Shown: piece by piece, positions 1 to 6,001 of the stretch
How positions within the stretch are numbered: the first letter of the stretch is position 1
Layout of the letters: each line of letters opens with the position of its first letter
Assembly: GCF_042453785.1 (NCBI RefSeq)
Contig: NC_091675.1
Coordinates: 51,346,501 to 51,410,500, forward strand
DNA length: 64,000 nucleotides
Source: Malus domestica
Lineage: Eukaryota > Streptophyta > Magnoliopsida > Rosales > Rosaceae
Direction: 5' to 3'
Notes under the pieces: model-generated
Seen by the model: only the letters and a program-made list of their open reading frames with translations
Told to the model about the DNA's origin: nothing
The model's database searches: none
Made by a program: the position numbers and the translations under genes

Positions 1-904
1 ACAAGACGCACAGATCTGGTGTTTCTTCTAAAAAGCACTTAAAGTGTTGGTTTTTTTAGGATTCACTTAAATTTTTACTAAATATTGATTTTGAAAATAT
101 TTGGACAAAAAACGCTTTTAGTTATTTTAAAAACATTTCAAACAAGCCCTATATGTAAACATATATTATGAAATATGTGTACGTGTTGATTTTTCCTATT
201 TTAGAGCTCATTTATGTTGGGCTTGTAATGTTTTCCAAGCCCATGTAAATCATTTGTTTGGAAGAGTGGGCCTTGTCTCAATCAAAAGTTTCACCTGACT
301 TCAAAAAAGCTATCCTTGGCAAAATCATGTTCGCCGTCACCCGCATCCTGCGATGTCCCGACTCCTCCCTCTCTTTCTCTCTCCCATATTCGCAAATGTA
401 TCGACTCTCCACATGGACGCAGAGAAAGAGCAGCGGAGACAGAAAAAGCTGTGTTTTTTTCTCCGTCTGAAACTGAAGTAGTCGCTATGAAAAAGAAGAA
501 ATAACCGAACCGCATGCACCGCCTGGACCACCTAAACCGTCTAGGCGGCCGCCTAATTCTTTTTCCAATTGTCCAAATGCCTACGGCAAAATAGCGGCAG
601 TTAGCCATTGCCTAGAGCTGAGCCCATTTTTAGAACAGTGAGCCTAGCGCTTAGCCCGATTTTTAGAACAGTGACTCGATATAGTTGCAGAAGCTGAGTA
701 TAGAGGCATGACCAAGGGCGAAGCTACTTGGTGGGGCGGTTCCTGGAACCGCCCCTCTGGTCCCGTCGGAAGTGAGCAATCCCGTCTGGTTGTCTGGTTT
801 TTGGTGCTCTGCAATAGAGCCCAGTGCTGCTGTGTTTCTGTTTTCAATTTTCAAACCCAGGCCAATAAATTTTTGGCCAAATTGGAAAAATGATCGTATT
901 CAGA
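1..904. other. Gene-free left edge with transposon remnants
   Basis: No supported gene. Bases 1-150 resemble one end of a hAT-type MITE: short AAGCACTT / AACGCTTTTAG words and a terminal CAAACAAGCCCT. Bases about 520-680 are locally G+C-rich with CTAGGCGG-type words, and the phrase TTTTTAGAACAGTGA occurs twice, about 40 bp apart; this looks like a dispersed repeat. The short open frames here (for example 258-470 and 708-893) resemble no family I know. Confidence 0.4.
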
Positions 905-1876
905 AACTCGGATTTAAAAACCCTGGTCCGTTATCAAATTTAGCCCATAAGTAATTTTTTCGTTAATTATCTGTTAATACATGGGTAAAATTGTACTTTG
1001 ACATGTGACCTCTTCCTCGTCTCTCTGCTCTCTCTGTAATTTGAATTTTCACAAAACCAATTCTGAGAAAACCGTCATTGAGATCAGCAGGAAGCTTCAA
1101 GACTGGCCTCTCATTGCTTTCTACGAACAGCAAGAATTGAAAGGCTTGAAAGACTGTCCTCTCGCAGGACATGCTCAATGTTCCAGTCCTCTATATCATT
1201 GGAGCTTTTTCATGGCAGACCTTAATGTGTGGTCTGCTAGGAATTCCTCCATCAAATGGAGTCATCCCACAGTCTCCAACGCATATAAAGAGTTTAGCTA
1301 CTCTTAAACACCAGGTAATCACACAAAACCTTTTGTTTATCGAACTGTATGGAAATATGCAAGATGCCTATCGACAGATGCAGACGCCTTTGGTTTACTA
1401 GGAGGCCTCATCTCGAGTATGACAAGAATATATATTTTGATTTTCAAATTTTTTGATATAATAAACCTGTGGCTTTGATTTGCAATGGCAAGAAGGCTGT
1501 AGTTTAGAACATTTGATGATATTAATTACCAGGTGATCATCGTGCTTTAATTGAAACACTTTTGTATTGCAGGGACTAAATGAATTAATAGAATCAACCA
1601 TCCAGGCAGCTTCAAGTATGGGAAATTATTGGATGCACCAGTTGATGAGACAGTATTTGATATTGAGAAATAGATTGATGATTTATTGCCGGTTGAGGTG
1701 AAGGAGCAGCGTCTCAGTAACCTGCTTCAAGCGGTATTGGTGGGGATGTGTTACAGAGAGAGCAGAGAGATGGGGAAGAGGCACATGTCAAAGTACAATT
1801 TTACACATGTATTAATAGATAGACTTTTGAATTAAATTTGTTAGCGGAGTACACACAGGAGTTTAAATCCAAGTTC
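905..1876. mobile_element. Non-autonomous long-TIR (Mutator-like) element carrying a BOR fragment
   Basis: The ends are inverted repeats of roughly 125-135 bp: about 905-1039 on the left and 1751-1876 on the right. They share the outer word GGATTTAAA, the stretch AAATTGTACTTTGACATGTG and the inner GAGAGAGCAGAGAGA run. No transposase is present. Long TIRs around host-gene exons are the usual layout of a Pack-MULE. I could not find a convincing 9-bp target duplication, so the exact ends and the superfamily remain uncertain. The interior holds boron-transporter exons (listed separately) and an unrecognised stretch at 1050-1170. Confidence 0.65.
1171..1735 (+). pseudogene. Captured boron transporter (BOR family) fragment
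   Basis: Bases 1171-1401 translate to a segment containing GLLGIPPSNGVIPQSP, then SLATLKHQ and YGNMQDAYRQMQTPLVY. These match the conserved middle of plant BOR anion exchangers, which export borate across the plasma membrane. A probable intron follows, with an acceptor at 1571-1572. Bases 1573-1735 continue with residues matching the BOR segment around VDETVFDIE and LLPVEVKEQRLSN. The copy is broken by an in-frame TAG after LVY at 1399-1401, an indel near 1625 and a TAG replacing a codon after FDIEK. Only a small middle part of the roughly 700-residue protein is present, without the N-terminal membrane region. It lies inside a TIR element, so it is a captured gene fragment, not a functional transporter. 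Confidence 0.8.
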
Positions 1877-2587
1877 TTTTTAGCACAAGGGTTATCTTCC
1901 AAATACCTTATAACCACATGAATCATTTATCTAATTTGGCCTAAATTTTTTGGGCAAATAATTTTTTTTTAAGTAGAATGGTGAGTTTAGTTTCTATTAA
2001 AAACTGATAGCAGGAGACCTTGCTTTGTTTGTCGTTTAGTAGCACGTGATCGTCAAGGACTTATCATTGACAATTAACATCCTTGTAGTCTTCTTTCTCG
2101 TGGGATTTTTTAAAAGATTTCAAGGCCAGAACTTTCCTAATAATTTCAATATAGAATAGGAGCTCATTTCAAGACTTTGATTTTTCCTTTTGAGTCGGAA
2201 CTGATTTCATTCTAATTTTTTTTTTCTTTTATGATTCTCTAACTCTTATGCATGAGTGCTAGCATTTTAGAATCGAAACTGACAGTTAGCACAAGAGTTA
2301 GAGAATTAGGAAAGGTTTTCAAGGCTTTGATTCTTCAAGGCCTTCTGTTTGGCTCTGTTATTCTCGTCTCCTCCTCCGTTGAAACTGAGACATCCAAAGA
2401 TAATAAGAAAGGTTAATTAATTATTAATTAGTGTATCCAGTCTTCTTTTCTTTTATGTATGCTAGCTAGTTAAATATTAGTTTACGCTTTGGTAGATAAG
2501 GTCTTTTTTCTTCAACCCACTATATGTCTTAATTTAAAACAATTGCACATCATCAATATGGTTACATTTTTACATATTCGACATACA
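1877..2587. other. Intergenic, A+T-rich, nothing recognised
   Basis: Between the two gene-carrying transposons I see no open frame, repeat end or RNA gene that I can support. Confidence 0.5.
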
Positions 2588-2742
2588 TATGCACCCAGTG
2601 GCGGATCCAGGAAATAATGTTTGGAGAGTCAATAAGGATAGCGCGTGCAGCGCGAAATTTTTTTTTAACAGAAACGGCATGCATATCGTCATTTCATCGG
2701 GTCTTGGTAGGATAGCGCGACCAGCTACTCCAAAATCCTTGT

Positions 2743-2945
2743 TCAAAGGTCCTGAACGTTCAAACATGGAGGAAGAGATTGCTTCAACTTGTCGGCCTTC
2801 TCGGAATCAAACACACAAAGTGTGTAAAGGTACTTGGAGCACCGAACCTTGAACTTGACAGCATCCTTGGTCCTCTTGATTTTGACATTGCGGGCATCCT
2901 TCCTTCTTGCAGTTAGAAGGAAATCCTTGTCCTCTATTTTATGAG
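2743..2945 (-). pseudogene. Captured ribosomal protein eL38 (RPL38) copy
   Basis: The minus-strand frame ending at 2743 reads [18 protein letters not shown], then [20 protein letters not shown] and ends [11 protein letters not shown] plus stop. This is the 69-residue large-subunit protein eL38, in frame with few substitutions (G to C and S to N near the C terminus; one extra codon near the N terminus). The true initiator region (MPKQ) is replaced by unrelated sequence and I see no suitable ATG. The piece has no intron over this length, so capture may have been from one exon or from a cDNA. It lies within the hAT element at 2596-3507 and is probably non-functional. Confidence 0.85.
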
Positions 2946-2959
2946 AGTAAAATCTCACA

Positions 2960-3111
2960 CAACGATTGTGCAAAACAATCCAACGTTACCTTTACTGTGT
3001 CCAAGAATTGCCCTGGGTGCACGTTTCGCCCTAGAGAAGTATTCGACCACAGAGTGCAAGTCATCAGCCTCTCGCTGATAGTTACCATACTGAAAGGTGC
3101 CTTCACTTTCC
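2960..3111 (-). pseudogene. Captured alpha/beta-hydrolase exon fragment
   Basis: Read on the minus strand from a preserved AG acceptor just before 3111, the frame gives ESEGTFQYGNY, EADDLHSVVEYF and then [11 protein letters not shown]. This resembles plant alpha/beta-hydrolases annotated as serine aminopeptidase-like; GHSKG is the nucleophile elbow with the catalytic serine. The frame is lost soon after the elbow and the sequence passes into the eL38 copy. Upstream, 3112-3180 looks like an intron end with a pyrimidine tract, which suggests genomic capture with part of an intron. It is a fragment only, with no catalytic acid or histidine present. Confidence 0.65.
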
Positions 3112-3744
3112 CTGACAACCAAAAATACCACAACTAATCAGCATCAATGTAATCTTAGATCTCAAATTGAAAAAAAATGCAAACTTTGCAAGTACGAACA
3201 GTATGATAAGGAAAGAGCCAGGCTTACAACTATGAAACTAACGAGGTGCACACAACGAAACTCTACACAGACCCTGCAACCGAAGTCTTTTTCTTCTCGC
3301 GCGCACGCCTTTCCTTCTTCTTCAACCTGCAACCGAAGTCTTTTTCTTCTTTCAGACATTTCATCGAACACGTGGTGTGCAGCTCCAAGAGGTCGCAATA
3401 GCAGCTCCAAGGGGTCGCACCAGCAGCTCCAAGGGACCTCTAAGGTTATTTCCATGGCTTCCAAGGGGTCGTGCGACCCCATTGACCCCACTGTGGCTCC
3501 GCCTCTGTATGCACCCATTACATATGTACAGCCGACTAAACCACATGTATGTACTCAATTATTAAATTTGTCATAGAGTACAAGAATTTGAATTTGTTTT
3601 CACTAAGTTCATCATAGTGTCACAATTCGTAATTAATATTGATAAATTATGAACGTCATTAATATTTTCTACCATCTAAAATGATTTGGTTGTCTCCATA
3701 ATTCTTTAACCTTGCACCCTTTTAAATCCGCCTATTCCCTCGCC

Positions 3745-3764
3745 AATTCCTGGCTTCGCCACTG
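3745..3764 (-). mobile_element. Orphan hAT-type terminus
   Basis: On the minus strand this reads CAGTGGCGAAGCCAGGAATT, nearly the same terminal sequence as the element at 2596-3507, but it lies 257 bp beyond that element's own right end and target duplication. It is probably one end of a second, older element of the same family whose other end I cannot place. Confidence 0.5.
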
Positions 3765-4301
3765 GGCATGACAAATGAATTATGTGAATTGTTCTAGTTT
3801 AAGAGATTGCTTACTGAATTAGGATTTGCTCCGGGGATTTGCAATGATTCTCTATAGTTGTTGATATTGCACGTAATTCAATTCAACATAATCGTACCAA
3901 GCATGTTGAAGTGGACAAATATTTCATTAGGAGAGATTGGAGTACCAAATTATTCAGTGCATTCGTAAAGTCTGAGGACCAATTGGCAAGTATTCCAACA
4001 AAGGCGGTTGCTAGTAAGGGTTTTATAACTCGCTCAACAAGTTAAGCGTATGTAGCATTTATGTACTATCTTTAGAAATTATTGCGTGTGTCATAGTCCA
4101 ATAGTCATTGTAATAGGATTTCTACTCTATTGTAAAATTCTCATGTACTCAACCTCCACAAATATGAATTACTTCACAAACTCTAGACTTATTTTTTTTA
4201 GTAAAACGATCACATACGTATGTGTTCATACTAAAGAAAGATCGCCTTTATCTTTTGATTTCACTCACCCGAGTTCGAAACCCCCACCTCCCTTACCTCG
4301 A

Positions 4302-4527
4302 ATCCACATAATAAAAAAGAAAACAAAATAAGACCGCTTCTCTTTGTATACATCCTCTTACGTTTTCAATCATTTATTGCAAAAGCAAATATATAATTTG
4401 GTAGATGTAACGTTATCCACATAATAAAAAAGAAAACAAAATAAGACCGCTTCTCTTTGTATACATCCTCTTACGTTTTCAATCATTTATTACAAAAGCA
4501 AATATATAATTTGGTAGATGTAACGTT
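4302..4527. repeat. 113-bp tandem duplication, two copies
   Basis: Copy 1 is 4302-4414 and copy 2 is 4415-4527, each starting ATCCACATAATAAAA and ending GATGTAACGTT. I see one mismatch (G at 4379, A at 4492), so the duplication is recent. A possible pol III B-box-like word (GTTCGAAACC) lies just upstream at about 4271, so the unit may overlap the tail of an old SINE. Confidence 0.9.
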
Positions 4528-5848
4528 TTGTGTAACAACCTGATGTCGCACCTTACCTTGTGTGAGCTATCAGCACATGACCAAATTGTGATTTACTTAC
4601 ACCAAAGTCTTGTGCCAACTGGCACACCACAAGAACCTGGTTTTCTTCGTCCTACATTTCACAATTGAAACATAAAATATATATTTGATTAAATAAAGTA
4701 AAATAAAATAAAGTAAAATAAAATAAAGAAAGATGGGCTTTGCTGAGTGTATATCCATGAAAAAGCAAACCCACAACTGTGAATATAGTATGTAATAAAG
4801 GCAGTCAAGCAATTCAGCTGAGTCGCCTCATCTCGAAGACAATTTTCTGTTCTTCATCTGCCTATGCAATTTTCTATTTCGGCGAATTAATTATAAAATA
4901 AATATTTATGTTTCAAAGAGCCATCTCATTCCGTACGGTAAGAAAATTTTTAAGAAAATATTGATTACTCCCATCATCAGCGTTAAGGCACATCATAATC
5001 TTGAGTTTGAAGAACTTACGTTTCCTTCACAATTTTGAGAAATTAATTTTCTGGCAAATAATTTTACTTGTATATCACAACATCTCTAAAAGAGGTCACA
5101 AAACTAAATTTGAAGTGCCACATAAATTTTTTTGTGCTCTATAGAGTTGTCAAATAAGTTTAAATTAAAAAAAAAAATTATTGTTCTACGATCTCTAGAT
5201 TTAGAGTCTCTATCCCACTCTTCAAATGTTTTTTCTGACTATTGAAAATTATCTTTGCTGAAGTTCACGAAAATTAAATACTAAAAAAAGGTCAAAGAGG
5301 GGAAATTAATAAAAATTATTAAGATTTGTGGAGTCGCAAAATATGAATTAATAAATTTTAGTCTTCAAACAGTCATGTAAGTATAAAAAAATAAAAAATA
5401 AATAAATAAATAAAAACTTGTTAAAGAGACATCTAGAGAAAACTTCCTTCGTAAGCGAGATCAAGTTTTCTTTGTGACATGTTTTCTTTCCCATGTAAAG
5501 AATATCTACTTTCTTTTAGGCAAAGGGAGAATTATGATACTGCTGACCTTTGAGGCCAAAAGACTTGACAACATTGACACGCACAGTTAGAAGAAATGAA
5601 TGAAAAATAATGGATCTGCCTAATTCCTTGACAGGGACAGAGAGAGATCCGAATTAATAAAGGGATGCGTTATTCATACGTGCTTTTTTGTCTGTTCATA
5701 TATCTTTTTAATTTTCGATCGTCTTTTTCAATCGTCTTTTTAAATGAATTGAAGAAAATTAATAAATAATAAATAATACGTGTCAAGTAAAATGAAGTTT
5801 GTGGATAACATACCCGCTAAAAAAAGCAAGGATACACTACTTTTGGGA
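4528..5848. other. Intergenic, A+T-rich, no gene seen
   Basis: There are low-complexity runs (for example AAATAAAATAAAG repeats around 4690-4730 and AAATAAATAAAT at 5395-5415). No coding or RNA feature is supported. Confidence 0.5.
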
Positions 5849-6001
5849 AAGTGTGGATGTTTCGTTTCATCAATGAATGAAGGATCGCTTTCAAGTTTCA
5901 TTAACAATTATTTTATATACGTTGCTTTTGGCAAAAGTGTGGATGGTTCGTTTCATCAATGAATGAAGGATCGCTTTCAAGTTTCACTAACAATTATTTT
6001 A
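5849..6001. repeat. Direct repeat, 67-bp units 86 bp apart
   Basis: Units at 5849-5915 and 5935-6001 start AAGTGTGGATG and end CAATTATTTTA, differing at only a few positions. They are separated by about 19 bp of ATACGTTGCTTTTGGC-type sequence that partly repeats the bases before unit 1. This is a tandem duplication with a short spacer. Confidence 0.85.

Follow-up and report, generated by a model that had tools for sequence, protein, structure and literature searches.

The window analysed here, a stretch of 64,000 nucleotides of apple (Malus domestica) DNA (C15:51346501-51410500), contains a 912-bp non-autonomous hAT-type element at positions 2596-3507. The element ends in short hAT-type terminal inverted repeats (CAGTGGCGGATCCAGG on the left and, read inward, CAGAGGCGGAGCCACA on the right), which we take to resemble those of named hAT families, and it is flanked by a perfect 8-bp target duplication, TATGCACC. 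Pieces of two host genes, for the ribosomal protein eL38 and for an alpha/beta-hydrolase with its GHSKG elbow, lie between the ends, both on the minus strand. This arrangement of hAT-like ends, intact duplication, and two captured genes in one orientation had been proposed in the initial annotation and was confirmed, with L009-L011 and L012-L015 as the parent genes. The ends, the eL38 piece, the hydrolase piece, and short linkers account for the whole element, and no transposase is present inside it. The parts of this mosaic are listed below (the exon and intron borders of the hydrolase piece were counted by hand from the alignment).

2588..2595, no strand: target site duplication, left copy TATGCACC, single in the unfilled paralogues L088-L091
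2596..3507, no strand: the whole non-autonomous hAT-type element, 912 bp, holding the captured gene pieces
2596..2719, plus strand: family left end (element 1-124), running from the terminal inverted repeat up to its junction with eL38, common to L031 up to about element position 125
2720..2929, minus strand: eL38 piece, codons 9-69, stop codon, and 23 bases of the 3' untranslated region (UTR), with the intron missing at the splice junction near 2764
2930..3276, minus strand: alpha/beta-hydrolase gene piece with intron sequence (2948-3276 matches L015, 96%)
about 2930-2989, minus strand: donor-side intron sequence of the hydrolase piece
about 2990-3111, minus strand: hydrolase exon with GHSK
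about 3112-3276, minus strand: acceptor-side intron sequence of the hydrolase piece
3308..3507, minus strand: family right end (element 713-912), 98% identical to L031 and L032, upstream of the transposase in relatives
3379..3435, plus strand: 22-bp subterminal tandem repeat within the right end, its copy number differing between elements
3508..3515, no strand: target site duplication, right copy TATGCACC, single in the unfilled paralogues

The 8-mer TATGCACC is by itself not rare in the window (three occurrences, 1.38 expected). At five other loci, a match to the joined flanks of the element covers 398-400 of 400 bases with 89-91% identity. Four unfilled loci were read (L088-L091), and each has TATGCACC once and no insert; a gap of 6 bases is present close by in L088. 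These unfilled loci represent copies of an older hAT-like element (705-3772) in which the 912-bp element is nested. The target is itself a repeat, and the empty sites are hence paralogous, not orthologous. An unfilled site, as anticipated in the initial annotation, was thus found in this paralogous form. A chance likeness of the two TATGCACC copies was rejected, being opposed by the unfilled sites and by the duplications across the whole family.

Relatives were sought in the 651-Mb genome with the whole element (at least 71 matches, best 40 of 362 candidates scored), the left end (at least 40 matches, best 40 of 216), and the right end (at least 41 matches, best 40 of 213), a sample that favours close relatives. 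Among the 72 loci examined (L001, L016-L086), 60 have both ends no more than 2.7 kb apart and 12 have a single end. The target duplications were scored with a shift of up to 3 allowed. They are exact over 8 bp in 52 of the 60 two-ended loci and agree in at least seven of eight bases in 58, all except L017 and L018; the exact duplications of L026 and L067, both TATATATA, are weak cases. When the right flanks were swapped among copies (200 shuffles), the mean number of exact matches was 0.085 and the maximum was 1. The 52 exact duplications prefer T at position 3 (31/52) and A at position 6 (29/52). The initial annotation had taken the intact duplication of the window copy as a sign of youth, but such a duplication is a poor guide to age, as 52 of the 60 two-ended copies have one; the 1.8% divergence of the window copy from its nearest full copy is better evidence. 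A further 912-bp copy elsewhere in the genome is 98% identical (duplication 8/8), and an 869-bp copy is 93% identical (7/8). Locus L016 (C5:39585306-39587263) holds a version of the window element that reaches 1958 bp through about 1 kb of extra sequence inside the hydrolase piece at element position 651, and it has a perfect target duplication, GTTGTAAC.

The element interiors fell into 21 classes (set by 60% mutual cover), 13 of them with at least two members. The cargo across the family comprises pieces of eL38, alpha/beta-hydrolase, GH1, UDP-glycosyltransferase, pectinesterase, PPR, and DUF2921 genes. Copies with similar ends and different cargo, which the initial annotation had proposed to look for, were found.

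The host eL38 genes L009 (C4), L010 (C6), and L011 (C12) lie at separate places and bear introns; like the hydrolase genes L012-L015, they are not in a transposon. The window eL38 piece is 98% identical to L009. In each of the three eL38 genes, the sequence matching the element is split into two blocks, separated by 264, 215, and 219 bp, respectively, and bordered by GT and AG. The window element crosses this second eL38 junction exactly at the splice sites and without the intron, which is present in all three of these closest host genes. In L009, the first intron, which separates the ATG from codon 2, is 1002 bp long, and the second is 266 bp long. Both introns are gone in ten elements, namely nine of class 1 (L017-L023, L043, and L044; 594-636 bp) and L042, which hold the 5' UTR, the ATG, the coding sequence, and part of the 3' UTR. 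With up to six differences tolerated, the junction of exons 1 and 2 was found in 10 of the 60 elements and that of exons 2 and 3 in 19. The eL38 of L018 is complete (69 amino acids; Pfam Ribosomal_L38e, 3.5e-35). When the genome was queried with the 296-bp eL38 stretch of L020, 43 matches were obtained, with 40 of 41 candidates scored. Ten were contiguous, near-full matches to the eL38 complementary DNA (cDNA; nine over 1-296, one over 1-286), and every one of these is an element of this hAT family. The other matches were exons of the three genes, partial matches to family elements, 83-87% matches within exon 2 at five places, and short matches, including a pair of 45-base matches on C7. An RNA-derived template for the eL38 piece is well supported.

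Colinearity of the hydrolase piece with L015 (96%, 2948-3276) and with L012-L014 (87-88%) extends across the acceptor side, the exon (ESEGTFQYG...GHSK), and the donor side; against L012 and L013, the piece reaches 2927. The intron status of its flanks was taken from the reading of host genes L012-L015. The parent protein, from joined exon translations, matched Hydrolase_4 at 8.8e-16; the 52-amino-acid piece alone gave no Pfam match above the cut-off. Since intron sequence is retained on both sides of the exon, the piece was derived from genomic DNA. The initial annotation had raised the question of whether introns were carried along, and the two cargoes answer it differently: the hydrolase piece kept them, whereas the eL38 piece was exactly spliced.

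Ten translations from ten other classes were compared with Pfam. Four matched pectinesterase (2.2e-19), DUF2921 (8.8e-16), PPR (8.3e-18), and GH1 (2.2e-11). A fifth had no Pfam match and resembled UDP-glycosyltransferase 74F2 (2.8e-21), and it matched an array of the host on C4 at 88-94%; for the remaining five, no match exceeded the Pfam cut-off. An unbroken 545-bp match, at 97% identity, links the GH1 piece to C14:24703334-24703878. From this match and from two separate Pfam stretches in the translation, the piece was read as probably keeping an intron. In L070, the GH1 piece lies within the eL38 piece (cDNA 345-310, GH1, cDNA 255-191), and the captures were therefore serial and interior. 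Among the matches listed for the GH1 piece (L070, L096; C15, C8, C14) were several more near-identical copies of it.

The junction between the left end and eL38 is identical in classes 1, 2, 3, 5, 13, 16, and 18, which argues for one capture. L031 (class 8) shares the left end to about element position 125, yet it has no eL38. The hydrolase pieces of classes 0, 4, 15, and 17 lie, to one base, inside the interval of classes 3 and 13, as expected of derivatives of it. Pairs of class 1 elements diverge by 4.1% on average, with corresponding means of 2.5% for class 0, 2.3% for class 3, 1.8% for class 2, and 1.1% for class 5; as a rough guide, this order fits uptake of eL38 first and of the hydrolase piece later. 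By substitutions in the last 130 bases, the right end of the window copy is nearest, outside its own lineage, to L031, L032, L033, and L034 (2.3%), which have no eL38. Class 1 right ends differ from it by 5.9-16.8%, some of these values being inflated by the fixed 130-base cut across a repeat. Identity over the right end is 98% to L031 and L032 versus 76-89% to class 1, a gap that comes partly from alignment gaps and is weaker in the substitution count. An exchange of right ends is at most suggested by these values. L033 (C13:26574458-26575281) has two consecutive right ends, with GGTGTATG after each.

Transposase-bearing loci on C9, C10, C15, and C6 share the right end over 144-146 bp at 92-95% identity. 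At C10, the element spans 3467 bp and is flanked on either side by TTTGGGAG; at C9, the element spans 3357 bp, with a duplication of 7/8. No matching duplication was seen for the C15 transposase locus and no left end for the C6 locus. Two pieces of the C15 locus matched DUF4371 (6.5e-33 and 1e-21), and a C9 piece matched the hAT dimerisation region below the cut-off (8.4e-4). In these relatives, the transposase is downstream of the right end, and class 1 eL38 therefore reads inward from that side. The owner of the left end was not found; the long frames beside the single left ends L055 and L066 look by eye retrotransposon-like, and nothing was recognised beside L073.

The window element is probably a Pack-hAT non-autonomous element that took up a copy of spliced eL38 messenger RNA (mRNA) early and gained a genomic hydrolase fragment later. 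An early family member would have taken up the mRNA copy with the 5' UTR, the coding sequence, and the start of the 3' UTR, and the eL38-bearing members would have multiplied at a length of about 600 bp. The window copy would belong to a later lineage that kept the left junction and most of eL38 and added the intron-bearing hydrolase fragment; the element would then have inserted into the older repeat, duplicating TATGCACC. Breaks from excision or stalled repair within an element may have been filled from sister elements, host genes, and cDNA of an abundant mRNA, and the ends may have been preserved since a DUF4371-type hAT transposase acting in trans needs them. It is proposed, tentatively, that a cut-and-paste DNA transposon family itself captured the spliced mRNA, through a reverse-transcribed intermediate, while repairing its own breaks, and that a mobile, multicopy, intronless ribosomal-protein gene resulted.

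Several observations weigh against this interpretation. The left end is common to the transposase loci over only about 18 bases (four loci read), and because it matches none of them further, the true autonomous partner was not found. In the C9, C10, and C15 copies, the reading frame of the transposase is broken. The right ends of class 1 members L019 and L022 differ from that of the window copy by 5.9%, about the class 0 level (4.6-7.7%), and the left ends do not single out class 1. A donor retrogene that was later lost may also have supplied the eL38 copy, and the genome search, in which no free intronless donor was found, scored 40 of 41 candidates and left several short matches unfetched.

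The eL38 mRNA might instead have been retroposed first, by the machinery of long interspersed nuclear elements or of long terminal repeat elements, landing inside an existing hAT element or between a pair of hAT ends, with hAT as a mere carrier. The loss of both introns, exact at the splice sites in 10 of the 60 elements, is a feature of processed retrogenes and fits this route equally well, and the 5' end extends well into the 5' UTR. Still, no poly(A) tail was seen at the 3' edge, where the piece stops about 23 bases past the stop codon, straight at the left hAT end; no obvious direct repeat of its own surrounds it by eye, and a free copy is missing among the matches. Retroposition of this kind is considered rather unlikely, and a plain free retrocopy was rejected, as the near-full eL38 cDNA sits between hAT ends in ten elements and the 40 of 41 candidates scored gave no free counterpart. 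Fusion of two neighbouring family insertions that moved jointly by local hopping, followed by internal deletions, is a model in print for Pack-TYPE elements (PMC8903248, as far as its available text goes). It would agree with the consecutive right ends of L033 and would need no gap repair for the hydrolase piece, but the spliced eL38 and the GH1 piece between two eL38 pieces are unexplained by it, and it is thought unlikely.

The eL38 cargo might also be used, if it were transcribed from the transposase-side end to give a protein or a regulatory RNA. Six of the ten eL38 open reading frames (ORFs) run from the ATG to the native stop, that of L018 being complete, and the class 1 ORF reads inward from the end that is upstream of the transposase in relatives. 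Against use, 19 of 24 unique changes (13 elements) are nonsynonymous or stops versus 17.1 ± 2.0 expected, which looks neutral; the frame has gaps in L019 and L044 and a premature stop in L020 and L042. As judged from the ORFs, use of the cargo is very improbable, and selection on the eL38 ORF was rejected as unsupported. Minority bases in class 1 number 26 at 210 sites inside the ORF versus 91 at 387 sites outside, and the lower count inside may reflect CpG-rich ends.

The enclosing older element has its own duplication, GGCATGAC, at 705-712 and 3765-3772, the sole plus-strand occurrences in the window. At about 1207-1314 (plus strand), it carries a boron transporter 1-like fragment (4.7e-17; Pfam HCO3_cotransp below the cut-off), and it may also be a Pack-hAT. 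Further along the window, a 113-bp unit is present in two tandem copies at 4302-4527 (99% alike, a recent duplication), and an 86-bp unit is tandemly duplicated at 5840-6001 (94% alike).

Multi-gene capture had been described in the initial annotation as less well known for hAT elements; gene capture by hAT elements is already in print: maize Ds2 and Ds-l4 carry gene fragments whose genomic capture was inferred (PMC3260210), and stepwise gain is described for Pack-TYPE elements (PMC8903248). In the available part of PMC3260210, gene capture by DNA transposons is taken to copy genomic DNA, and kept introns are a usual feature of the cargo, without a formal definition. The apple element resembles Ds2 and Ds-l4 in being a short hAT element with conserved ends, variable filler, and occasional host fragments, and its hydrolase piece is likewise intron-bearing; it differs in that one cargo is exactly spliced. 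It shares with plant Pack-TYPE elements, Pack-hAT included, the non-autonomous multicopy state, the conserved ends, and the stepwise gain of host pieces, whereas the available text of PMC8903248 describes no RNA-derived cargo and has no mention of intron, spliced, or cDNA. Among animal Pack-TIRs, hAT is the largest group (208/370), and gap filling and fork switching were proposed; intronless captured copies were removed before counting, so that cargo of the eL38 type would have gone uncounted (PMC8277862, in the part available). In mouse zygotes, breaks were repaired with either genomic DNA or the sequence of spliced mRNA, corresponding to the two cargo types of the apple element, although those were Cas9 breaks in mouse as opposed to transposon gaps in a plant (PMC4516963, likewise in part). 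A 2026 review never uses "intron" or "spliced" in the main text available (PMC13317346). No report of spliced-mRNA cargo in a hAT element was found in titles and the beginnings of abstracts, with most subscription journals outside the scope. Pack-hAT elements are thus already known, and, within the reach of these searches, the combination of a spliced and an intron-bearing cargo in a single hAT element is an unreported variant.

The presence of both kinds of cargo in one element makes the templating of transposon gap repair by mRNA directly testable. If such templating is true, RNA would be a second template pool for gene capture by transposons beside genomic DNA, and the product would combine features of a retrogene with those of a DNA transposon. 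Entire intronless coding sequences could also become mobile in plants in this way.
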